DNA from: Sneathiellales bacterium
Lineage (GTDB): Bacteria > Pseudomonadota > Alphaproteobacteria > JANQFL01
Direction of reading: 5' to 3'
Length of the DNA stretch: 42,884 bases
NCBI GenBank assembly: GCA_028277845.1
Contig: JANQFL010000092.1
Span: forward strand, 1-42,884
Below the pieces are notes generated by a model. It saw only the letters and a list, made by a program, of their open reading frames with translations. It did no database searches and had not been told where the DNA came from. The translations under genes and the position numbers were made by a program. Below, piece by piece: positions 1 through 42,884 of this stretch (its first letter is position 1; each line of letters opens with the position of its first letter).

Positions 1-62
1 TTGGCGCCAAGACGCCCGTCCCTCCGGGTTTCCGAGCGGCCGCCCCCCACGGCGTCAGACGG

Positions 63-159
63 CTTGCGCGATGCACCACATCGCGCTGCCCCGTCTTCCT
101 GGTGGATGAGCAGGCCGCTCGAGAAACAGAATGGTTCCGTCTAAGGATGAAACGCTCTA
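63..159 (-). repeat. Dispersed gene-end repeat, copy 1 (full length)
   Basis: Read on the minus strand this 97-base unit begins TAGAGC, runs through a core containing ATTCTGTTTCTCGAGCGGCC, then a second module (CATCCACCAGGAAGACGGGG), and ends with a hairpin GCGCGATG-5 nt-CATCGCGC followed by AAG. It aligns almost base for base with 42787-42884, with one single-base indel. Its first three bases are the TAG stop codon of the regulator at 157-1143. Bases 1-62, beyond it, hold a perfect palindrome TTGGCGCCAA at 1-10 and an opposite-facing GAGCGGCC at 34-41, so the repeated unit may extend further outward. Its role is unknown; a 3'-end RNA structure or terminator is possible. Confidence 0.9.
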
Positions 160-2959: not shown

Positions 2960-3787
2960 CTAACGCGCCGAACGCCGCCGCGTCATGCCAAGGCCTGCCA
3001 GTCCGACGGCGAAGAGCGCCAACGTGCCGGGTTCGGGCACCGTGATAAGCGCATCGGGTATGTACGTGAAAGCGGCGACGCTTTGGTCGGGCGCCAGAGG
3101 TGTGTCAAAGGCGTCGATGAACGAGTTGTTCAGGTTGATGAGGTCGTTCAGCGTGTCGAAGCGCGTCACAATCTGCCCGTTGGCGCCGCCAGGGTCCAGT
3201 TCGGTGATCAAGTAATAGTGGCTGCCGTCGAAGGTCAGGCCGCCGATGCTCTGGTCAAAGGCGAGGGTGGCCATGGAGTGAAGACCGGAGCTGTTCAAGG
3301 CGATCAAGTCGGCCAGGGAATCGTAGACAGCGAGGAGTTGGCTGTTGGCGCTGCCGGGGTCCAACTCGGTGATCATGATGTATTGGCTGCCGTTGTAGGT
3401 CAGCCCGCGGATACTTTGATCGAACGCCAGCGTCGCCATCGCATGAATGGTGCCGCCGCTCAACGAGACCAAATCGGCATAGGAATTGTAGACGCCGAGC
3501 AGTTGTGTGTTAACGCCGCCGGGGTCCGATTCGGTGATCAGAATGAACTGGCTGCCGTCGTAAGTCAGTCCGCCGATGCTTTGATCCGGCGCCACAGGCC
3601 CGAAGGACTCAAGATTCAGTCCGTTCAGGGCGATCACGTCGGGGATCGATGCGTATTGGTTAATCAGCTGGCCGTTGGCGCTGCCCGGATCCAGCTCGGT
3701 GATCAGCGAAAAGACAGGGGCCGCCACCGCTTTGAACGAGAAGACGATCGTGACACTCGCAAGCAACAAAACGTTTCTAATCGACAT
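2960..3787 (-). CDS. PEP-CTERM-sorted secreted protein with four 55-residue repeats
   Basis: The start ATG at 3787 gives a 275-residue precursor with an N-terminal signal peptide (MSIRNVLLLASVTIVFSFKAVAA). Four consecutive repeats of exactly 55 residues follow, each opening with a [L/I]ITE.DPG motif and ending near DQSIGGLTYDGS. The C-terminus is a textbook PEP-CTERM sorting signal: VPEPG, a hydrophobic segment and a basic tail (TRRRSAR). Known PEP-CTERM proteins are processed by an exosortase (EpsH-type) and associated with extracellular polysaccharide. No exosortase gene is in this window. The gene lies antisense between two parts of the carnitine island, only 9 bases past the methyltransferase stop. 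Its function is unknown. Confidence 0.85.
   Translation of the reverse strand: MSIRNVLLLASVTIVFSFKAVAAPVFSLITELDPGSANGQLINQYASIPDVIALNGLNLESFGPVAPDQSIGGLTYDGSQFILITESDPGGVNTQLLGVYNSYADLVSLSGGTIHAMATLAFDQSIRGLTYNGSQYIMITELDPGSANSQLLAVYDSLADLIALNSSGLHSMATLAFDQSIGGLTFDGSHYYLITELDPGGANGQIVTRFDTLNDLINLNNSFIDAFDTPLAPDQSVAAFTYIPDALITVPEPGTLALFAVGLAGLGMTRRRSAR
3053..3712 (-). repeat. Four tandem 165-base coding repeats in the PEP-CTERM gene
   Basis: The translated region divides into four units of 55 residues with no gaps, which is 165 bases each. The most alike units are the second and third, sharing LLxVY, HxMATLAFDQSIxGLT and similar blocks. The fourth is the most diverged (AFDTPLAPDQSVAAFTY). 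The spacing is invariant, so duplication was by whole units. Units this uniform resemble beta-strand or propeller blades, but no fold is assigned. Confidence 0.85.
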
Positions 3788-3854
3788 AATCAAACACCAC
3801 CCTATTGGAACGAACTCCGCATCGCCGGGTTGAAGGCGACCAACGATAAGAAAC

Positions 3855-3878
3855 ATCCCGGGCGGGATACTTGTACAA
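3855..3878. promoter_or_regulatory. Paired palindromes between the PEP-CTERM gene and cdhA
   Basis: In the divergent region before cdhA (3919) two palindromes lie two bases apart: ATCCCG-GG-CGGGAT at 3855-3868 and TTGTACAA at 3871-3878. They are 40-65 bases upstream of the cdhA start and about 70-90 bases from the PEP-CTERM start, a position suited to an operator. No regulator can be named. Confidence 0.3.
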
Positions 3879-12404: not shown

Positions 12405-12869
12405 ATGGATTGGGACCAGGCCGGATCGGATTTTCTGCCCGACGGGGCGTTGCGGGATATCTATGTCTTGAACGTCACCATCGATGACTGGCAGGCCGTG
12501 GTCGATATCGTCCGGGATCTGGATCCACCACCCGTCTACATGGTCGACATCAAGCCGGTGCCATTGCCCGAAAGGGTGGAAGATATCTTCGCCGTGCGGC
12601 CGAACGCTTCTCCCATGCTGTCGTTCATGCGGGCCAATGCCCAACTCAATTGCCACTTTTTCTCCCAAGACGAAATCGAGTTCGATCTCGACCCGGCCGA
12701 AGTGGCCGAGGCCGAGGACCTGTTCGCCGTGGCGGAATTCATGGAAACCATCGGCTGGCGAACCGGCAAAACGGTGATATTGACCCAGGAAAACACGCGT
12801 AAAAATCCCATCCTGCGCTTCACCACCGATAGCGGCGAGGTGGAATGGTTGCCGCCGGGGCGGGTTTAG
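12405..12869 (+). CDS. Conserved-looking hypothetical protein, acidic
   Basis: This 154-residue acidic cytoplasmic protein has no signal peptide or membrane segment. Regular alternation (LRDIYVLNVTIDDWQAVVDIVRDL, then GKTVILTQENTRKNPILRFTTDSGEVEWLP) suggests an alpha/beta fold, and I do not recognise the family. The start follows a terminator tail with no strong Shine-Dalgarno. Its TAG stop (12867-12869) is also the first codon-length element of repeat copy 2. The following reductase gene may be co-transcribed through that repeat. Confidence 0.7.
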   Translation: MDWDQAGSDFLPDGALRDIYVLNVTIDDWQAVVDIVRDLDPPPVYMVDIKPVPLPERVEDIFAVRPNASPMLSFMRANAQLNCHFFSQDEIEFDLDPAEVAEAEDLFAVAEFMETIGWRTGKTVILTQENTRKNPILRFTTDSGEVEWLPPGRV

Positions 12870-12914
12870 AGCGTGTCTCCCTTAGATGGAAACAATTCTG
12901 TTTCTCGAGCGGCC
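12867..12914 (+). repeat. Dispersed gene-end repeat, copy 2 (first module only)
   Basis: This copy has 48 bases and begins TAGAGC exactly at the stop codon of the gene ending at 12869. It contains TTAGATGGAA and ATTCTGTTTCTCGAGCGGCC and then diverges from copies 1 and 3 immediately after CGGCC. It lacks the second module and hairpin, and the 12930 gene's ribosome-binding region follows directly. It shows that the repeat has at least two separable modules. Confidence 0.88.
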
Positions 12915-12929
12915 GGCGAAGAAACGCAC

Positions 12930-13451
12930 ATGACCGTCATTCGCGGGTACATGGCGGCCAGCGCCGACGGCTATATCGCCGACCGCGATGGCGGTGTCGG
13001 CTGGCTCGATCCGTTCAACGGCCTGGATTATGGCTACACGGCCTTCATCGCGCAGATCCGCACCGTGGTCATGGGCCGCGCCACCTACGATCAGGCGCGT
13101 GGCTTCGGACCCGACTGGGTCTATGCCGGCAAGCGTGGCATCGTCGTCACCTCGTCGTCGCTGCATGACGCACCCGCGGATGTCACTGCCTGGCACGACG
13201 ATTTGCCCGGATTGGCGGCGCATTTGCGGGCCCTGGACGACGGCGATGTCTGGATTGTCGGCGGGTCCCAACTGCAATCGGCCCTGATCGAAATCGGCGC
13301 CCTCGACCGGCTGGAGCTGTTCTACATGCCGGTGTTGCTGGGGAACGGCGTACCGCTGTTTCGCGCCGGCAAAGACATCAGAGCTTTGCAGTTGGAGGCG
13401 GCCGAGCCGTTTGAAAACGGCGTGGTCCGCCTCGACTACCGGCTGTCCTGA
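12930..13451 (+). CDS. Dihydrofolate reductase / RibD C-terminal domain protein
   Basis: From the ATG at 12930 (upstream GAAGAAA) this is a 173-residue single-domain protein of the RibD_C/DHFR-like family. It opens with TVIRGYMAASADGYIADRDGGVGWLD and has TVVMGRATYDQ (the NADPH-binding segment) and VWIVGGSQLQSALIEIG. Members reduce pteridine or deazaflavin-like substrates with NAD(P)H, and many are uncharacterised. An apparent upstream start at 12873 would translate the repeat itself (MSPLDGNNSVSRAAG...), so I rejected it. No riboflavin or folate genes are nearby, so the role is open. Confidence 0.85.
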   Translation: MTVIRGYMAASADGYIADRDGGVGWLDPFNGLDYGYTAFIAQIRTVVMGRATYDQARGFGPDWVYAGKRGIVVTSSSLHDAPADVTAWHDDLPGLAAHLRALDDGDVWIVGGSQLQSALIEIGALDRLELFYMPVLLGNGVPLFRAGKDIRALQLEAAEPFENGVVRLDYRLS

Positions 13452-41934: not shown

Positions 41935-42789
41935 ATGGACCAATTTCAAGTCGGCGACATTCATGTCCAACGCATCGTTGAGCTGGAGGACTTGTTTATA
42001 CCGATCAGCGACATGTTGCCCGATGCCGCGAGGGAGGACATCGCCCGACACCGGCAATGGCTGGAACCCTGGGCCTTGTGTCCGGACACAGGCCGCATGG
42101 TGCTTCCGGTGCAAACCTATCTGGTCCGCACATCCCGGCATACGATTCTGGTCGATACCTGCGTCGGCAACTGCAAGTCCAATACATTCTTTGCGCCGTG
42201 GCATAACCGCAACGACTTGACCTGGATGCAGCGGCTGGCCGCAGCCGGTGTTGGACCCGCGGATGTGGACTTTGTTTTGTGCACCCATATGCATCTGGAT
42301 CACACGGGCTGGAATACGCAGCTTGTCGACGGCCGCTGGGTGCCGACATTCCCCAAGGCAAGATATCTGTTCGCACGCGAGGAATTCGAACATCGCCAGG
42401 GCTTGGCCGATTCAACATTCATGGAAAACGTGGTGCCCGTGATGGACGCAGGGCAGGGCGTTATCGTTGCCATGGATCATGCACTCGACGATCAGGTTTG
42501 GCTGGAACCGACACCGGGACATACACCGGGACACGTGACGATACATCTTGCCTCGAACGGCCAACAGGCCGTGTTGATGGGTGATCTCATGCATTCGCCG
42601 GTCCAGTGCGCCGAACCGGATTGGCGCGCCGTGTCCGATGGCGATCCCGATTTGGCGCGCGCCACACGCCGGCGTTTCCTGGATCAGCACGTGGACACCG
42701 ATACGCTGGTCATGACGGCACATTTTCCGTCGCCGTCCGTCGGTCGTGTTGTGCCCCATGCGGACGCCTTTCGTATGAAATTCGTCTAG
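41935..42789 (+). CDS. Metallo-beta-lactamase fold hydrolase
   Basis: The ATG at 41935 gives 284 residues with the full motif THMHLDHTGWN (117-127; His118, His120, Asp122, His123). A further histidine lies in TPGHTPGHV, a bridging aspartate in LMGDLMHSP and a late histidine in TAHFPSPS. This fits the broad lactonase/glyoxalase-like group, cytoplasmic; quorum-lactone or other ester hydrolysis cannot be told apart. The TAG stop is the start of repeat copy 3. It is the third metallo-beta-lactamase fold gene in the window. Confidence 0.88.
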   Translation: MDQFQVGDIHVQRIVELEDLFIPISDMLPDAAREDIARHRQWLEPWALCPDTGRMVLPVQTYLVRTSRHTILVDTCVGNCKSNTFFAPWHNRNDLTWMQRLAAAGVGPADVDFVLCTHMHLDHTGWNTQLVDGRWVPTFPKARYLFAREEFEHRQGLADSTFMENVVPVMDAGQGVIVAMDHALDDQVWLEPTPGHTPGHVTIHLASNGQQAVLMGDLMHSPVQCAEPDWRAVSDGDPDLARATRRRFLDQHVDTDTLVMTAHFPSPSVGRVVPHADAFRMKFV

Positions 42790-42884
42790 AGCAGTTCCTC
42801 TTTAGATGGAATCCATTCTGTTTCTCGAGCGGCCTGCCCATCCACCAGGAAGACGGGGCCGCGCGATGCCGGGCATCGCGCAAG
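42787..42884 (+). repeat. Dispersed gene-end repeat, copy 3 (full length)
   Basis: This is a 98-base copy in the opposite orientation to copy 1. It begins TAGAGC at the stop of the preceding gene, contains the shared ATTCTGTTTCTCGAGCGGCC core and the CATCCACCAGGAAGACGGGG module, and ends with hairpin GCGCGATG-5 nt-CATCGCGC and AAG at the last base of the window. The loop bases differ from copy 1 (CCGGG here), while the stem is identical. Confidence 0.92.

Follow-up and report, generated by a model that had tools for sequence, protein, structure and literature searches.

A MITE family with IS630-type ends supplies in-frame stop codons to unrelated genes in an alphaproteobacterial genome

Three copies of a repeat in a 42,884-nucleotide stretch of a Sneathiellales genome (the window, which is an entire contig, C112) begin with TAGAGC, and the TAG of each copy serves the gene upstream as its in-frame stop codon. 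This arrangement raises the question of how a repeat can come to lie in exact register with the ends of unrelated genes. A preliminary description of the locus had proposed either a selected 3'-end element or a mobile element with a preference for stop codons. A 20-base core of the repeat had exactly three matches in the window (113-132 on the minus strand, 12895-12914 and 42815-42834 on the plus strand; chance expectation, 0.00), and the TAGAGC start was confirmed for all three copies. The genes were indeed unrelated, encoding an AraC-type regulator with a DJ-1/PfpI domain (TAG at 157-159, minus strand, made up of the target TA and the first base of the element), a 154-amino-acid protein of unknown family (gene at 12405-12869; TAG at 12867-12869, plus strand) and a metallo-beta-lactamase-fold protein with an in-frame coding ORF (TAG at 42787-42789, plus strand). 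Coding scores of 66, 46 and 65 in the TAG frame and of less than 2 in the other frames (45.8 versus 1.5 and 0 for the second gene) confirmed that each TAG is the stop codon in use.

The positions of the TAG ends agreed with the preliminary description, but the lengths did not, as the repeat units are longer. Copy 1 (1-159, minus strand) has its left (TAGAGC) end at 159 and contains 159 of approximately 272 bp, with the architecture of complete copies, and copy 3 (42787-42884, plus strand) consists of a left end and 98 of approximately 272 bp. The contig breaks inside repeat copies at both of its ends, with the rest of copies 1 and 3 lying beyond them, and these two copies form an inverted repeat (I1). 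Copy 2 (12867-12935, plus strand) is a 5' fragment of 69 bp rather than 48 bp and lacks the right-hand portion of the repeat; 63 of its 69 bases are identical to another copy (L053), and the match stops at 12935. The ATG start of a RibD_C-family gene (12930-12932, plus strand; start assignment inferred from homology) lies within this remnant, and the sequence around it, AAGAAACGCACATG, recurs in about 12 other copies. The decayed copy may, through its 12915-12935 part, give its RibD_C-family neighbour a start as well as giving one gene its stop. No curated RNA family was matched in an Rfam search of the window. Elsewhere in the window, a gene at 2963-3856 (minus strand) encodes a PEP-CTERM protein with tandem repeats of approximately 55 residues (four DNA repeats with 165-nt spacing, 3171-3705).

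In the whole genome (5.39 Mb in 124 contigs), 71 to 72 matches to the core and 145 inverted-repeat ends (matches to the terminal 24-mer) were detected. The full element is approximately 272 bp long (typically 271 to 297 bp; range, 203 to 323 bp), with pairwise identities of 85 to 97% between complete internal copies, and a complete copy runs from TAGAGCAATTCCTCTTTAGATGGAATCCATTCTG to CAGAATGCTTCCATCTAAAGAGGAATTGCTCTA. Terminal inverted repeats of 25 to 34 bp (TAGAGCAATTCCTCTTTAGATGGAA...TTCCATCTAAAGAGGAATTGCTCTA) are present. Among 17 complete copies, the 25-base arms were identical to each other at 18 to 25 of 25 positions within a copy. The inverted repeat spans nearly the full length of the element, and the predicted RNA fold has an energy of -184.7 kcal/mol (z score, -13.7). 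Neither a transposase ORF nor any other recognisable coding sequence was found in the element. The repeat, which is short and multicopy, has terminal inverted repeats and carries no transposase gene, is a MITE. The assembly is interrupted within many copies, which are therefore located at contig ends, and the family accounts for many of the breaks in this assembly. Copies with divergent ends were also seen (L022, L041 and L057), in which both arms are altered in step, as could arise from sub-families or from homogenisation of the arms.

The ends and their flanks were then used to define the target. Nearly all copies have a TA at each end, and the base preceding it, at 131 unique ends, was a pyrimidine in 124 (C, 85; T, 39), with A at 6 ends and G at 1. 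For the 16 copies with known sequence on either side, the pre-insertion tetranucleotide was reconstructed on the assumption that TA is duplicated; this gave CTAG in 8, CTAA or TTAG in 5, TTAA in 2 and TTAT in 1, i.e., YTAR in 15 of 16. From these base counts and reconstructed sites, the target is YTAR, mostly CTAG, and the element proper is GAGC...GCTC. A CTAG preference has reportedly been seen for IS630 itself, by Tenzen and Ohtsubo in 1991. Duplication of all 4 bp of YTAR was considered and rejected, as C or T precedes TA whichever end is considered, while a 4-bp duplication would require the element-side C at that position in every case.

A YTAGAGC motif was found at both ends, approximately 1.06 kb apart, of five IS630-family elements, from Dinoroseobacter shibae, Sinorhizobium (ISRm2011-2), Rhizobium, Microvirga and a further genome (G193). 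Elements of the ISRm2011-2 type thus resemble the MITE in having YTA|GAGC ends on both sides and a TA target within YTAR, but differ in being approximately 1.06 kb long with a transposase gene, whereas the repeat in the window is of 272 bp and has no recognisable coding sequence. A multicopy element in another genome (G337) has a 25-base end with two mismatches to the MITE end and encodes a peptide terminating in ...ECRNYFANAGYASV, which resembles the C terminus of the G193 transposase by eye; its 39-amino-acid C-terminal piece had no match in Pfam. These shared ends strongly suggest a link between the MITE and the IS630 family. Biochemical work has established that IS630 elements use TA as their insertion site, with duplication of the TA, a specificity for DNA sequence and a requirement for the transposase alone (PMC2170065). 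Because IS630-family elements have the same YTA|GAGC ends, the MITE would be mobilised by an IS630 transposase with duplication of TA, and by this analogy the TA duplication would hold for the family in the window. A cognate IS630 transposase gene with matching ends was not found in the draft assembly (no DDE_3 match; only sub-cut-off matches for NF033545/transpos_IS630) and could have been lost or be hidden in a gap between contigs; a MITE does not require one in its own genome. A fragment at a contig end of this draft (C51; G000, L194) weakly matched the C-terminal part of an IS630 model and was discarded as a candidate, being of a different IS630-like type that lacks TAGAGC ends.

In order to determine how general the register is, a codon-usage score was trained on long ORFs, and each end was examined for a coding ORF running into it and for the frame of that ORF. 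Such an ORF was present at 50 of 131 ends and at none of the remaining 81. The element TAG served as the stop codon at 41 of the 50, the remaining two frames accounting for 5 and 4, against a chance expectation of one-third (P = 2e-12). The register therefore withstood the first refuting condition that had been named, a TAG in frame no more often than chance. One of the five (L022) has a TGA stop one base earlier. Genome-wide, only 41 of 131 ends are in-frame stops, and the three-of-three register, while correct for the window, was therefore partly luck. Whether most copies lie away from stops, which had been named as a refuting result, came out as a draw: about 40 of 66 to 72 elements (approximately 60%) are at stops by end count, on the assumption of two ends per element, whereas among the 16 copies flanked by known sequence on both sides just 5 are so placed. 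A single copy (L018) terminates two convergent genes, its reconstructed TTAA site being the overlapping TAA codons of both. Eight genes (L010, L030, L079 and five more) were observed to enter the element out of the TAG frame, by which they would be extended by 6 to 96 codons. When reading proceeds in frame 2, another TAG is met in the arm six codons on; a TorS-like kinase, with a short added tail ending ...RAIPL, is an example.

The proteins that stop at the element TAG were examined for completeness against full-length family models. The PcaF 3-oxoadipyl-CoA thiolase was matched over 399 of 399 residues and reached the end of the model (400/400), and matches extended to 390 of 391 positions for O-succinylhomoserine sulfhydrylase, 280 of 282 for DapB, 314 of 315 for a B6 permease and 473 of 475 for an aldehyde dehydrogenase. 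Judged by these alignments, the checked proteins are full length.

A related family allowed occupied and empty sites to be compared. Genome G334 contains an element of 139 bp that also has TAGAGC ends, for which 16 of 16 ORF-abutting ends were in the stop frame and the TA was in most cases preceded by C and followed by G in the flanks. The empty sites at three of its loci were found in the sister species G387, G386 and G385, and in each the gene stops at the same codon. At L226 the empty G387 site ends the gene with CGT TAG, at L227 the empty site ends with AGC TAA, and at L233 it ends with TTC TGA (G387 and G385) or TTT TAG (G386). Where the empty site has a TA there is one copy of it, not two, and the element now supplies TAG at that codon. 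These comparisons showed insertion into existing stop codons for the G334 family, a relative of the family in the window. The register with stops was found in two genomes that belong to different families, with the empty sites of sister species as a check.

Taken with the target and the ends, these observations suggest a simple mechanical reason for a repeat in exact register with the stops of unrelated genes, namely the combination of target site and element end. The MITE would be moved in trans by a transposase of the IS630 family (Tc1/mariner superfamily) and would enter YTAR sites, CTAG in most cases, at their TA, which would be duplicated. At both ends the target TA and the terminal G of the element give TAG, and insertion into a TAA or TAG stop, in either orientation, would leave an intact TAG at the same codon. 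Within a reading frame TAR can only be a stop, and other insertions into coding sequence would break genes and be lost through purifying selection, which would act as the filter; surviving copies would then be found at stop codons or between genes. The register would follow because in-frame TAR is always a stop and TA plus the G of the element restores TAG from either end. This account, in which an IS630-family transposase acts in trans on YTAR and the stop is rebuilt, is very probably correct. The proposal of a mobile element is thereby upheld, but its preference would be for YTAR tetranucleotides rather than for stop codons as such, these being the insertion-tolerant kind inside genes.

The excess at stops is nevertheless larger than target choice and loss from coding sequence alone predict. 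A 400-kb sample of this genome contains YTAR 99 times at stops, 123 times in coding sequence and 220 times elsewhere, and among non-coding placements stops were enriched for the element (approximately 40/63 versus 99/319 for background YTAR; odds ratio, 3.9; P = 3e-6). Avoidance of, or loss from, promoter regions may be the cause. The same enrichment is what would be seen if the element recognised stop codons themselves, perhaps by way of the 3' ends of transcripts or of ribosome release, instead of a DNA tetranucleotide, but in copies away from stops TA is likewise preceded by Y (76 of 81 ends) and the targets are likewise YTAR, and the biochemistry of IS630 cited above is specific for DNA sequence; we consider such targeting highly improbable. 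The over-representation of stops relative to YTAR would also fit a selected 3'-end RNA element (a terminator, stabiliser or processing site) held in register by its working there, as would the near-full-length hairpin and the finding that arms within one copy match each other better than arms across copies (permutation P = 0.001). Matched arms would equally be a requirement of a transposase, however, and two-thirds of the ends are not stop codons. Furthermore, the same signal is present at both ends, either of which can be the stop, giving no polarity, the repeat is patchy and missing from most of the class, and sister species lack the related G334 element at the same genes. A 3'-end function is therefore unneeded and has no direct support, and it is very unlikely to explain the register. 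A trivial origin, in which random insertions into genes were stopped early, would draw on the fact that the element starts with TAG and terminates any frame-0 reading at once, but a frame-0 YTAR target is already a stop, the proteins that end at the element are full length and the empty sites of the G334 family have a stop at the same codon. Such premature termination, which these observations already contradict in the cases examined, is exceedingly improbable.

The family appears to be new and undescribed, although the kind of element is already known. In the literature searched, from which most subscription journals were absent, neither the family nor the stop-register rule was described for Alphaproteobacteria. 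RIME (Rhizobium-specific intergenic mosaic element) is an alphaproteobacterial intergenic palindromic repeat that is similar by description only. RUP of Streptococcus pneumoniae is an IS630-related MITE of 107 bp that inserts at TA (PMC2229807, PMC3049150); it is like the repeat in the window in its IS630 link and TA insertion but unrelated in sequence and host, and a stop-codon rule was not found in those portions of the two accounts of RUP that were available (PMC2229807, PMC3049150). BOX, a modular, MITE-like repeat of S. pneumoniae with a proposed link to another insertion sequence, ISSpn2, is described as encoding the stop of the upstream CDS in 36 copies, without strong evidence of truncation (PMC3049150), and so provides a precedent of a stop-encoding repeat for the MITE, with unrelated sequence.

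These results caution that repeats in register at gene ends need not be regulatory. They also lead to the prediction, for IS630-type elements generally, that those with G (or A) after TA will be enriched at stop codons and those with other ends will not. It is conceivable, if rather doubtful, that this IS630 clade acquired its terminal G as an adaptation, with TA|G ends making stop codons safe landing sites and so aiding spread through the Alphaproteobacteria; if true, stops would be the commonest harmless in-gene TA sites of a GC-rich genome, and the clade and its MITEs would have spread by regenerating stop codons.

Further elements with these ends were detected in other genomes. A search of the GTDB genome collection with the exact inverted-repeat pattern gave one element, in Nitratireductor arenosus (L142, 1936-2244), with nearly the same inverted-repeat ends, a different interior and a TAG that is the apparent stop of a gene (frame by eye). 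Hairpin repeats in Rhizobium and Aminobacter plasmids had 66 to 71% identity over 142 to 257 bases and TAGAGC...GCTCTA ends, so that the ends are shared with the MITE while the interior has diverged; they are unannotated and unnamed in the records examined. In Rhizobium sp. N731, the stop codon of a RefSeq-annotated CDS coincides exactly with a related element's TAG. Near-perfect hairpins of 58 bp with TAGAGC...GCTCTA ends, each joined to a second hairpin, were observed at two loci of genome G313 (L148 and L168) and represent another small repeat of the same terminal type.
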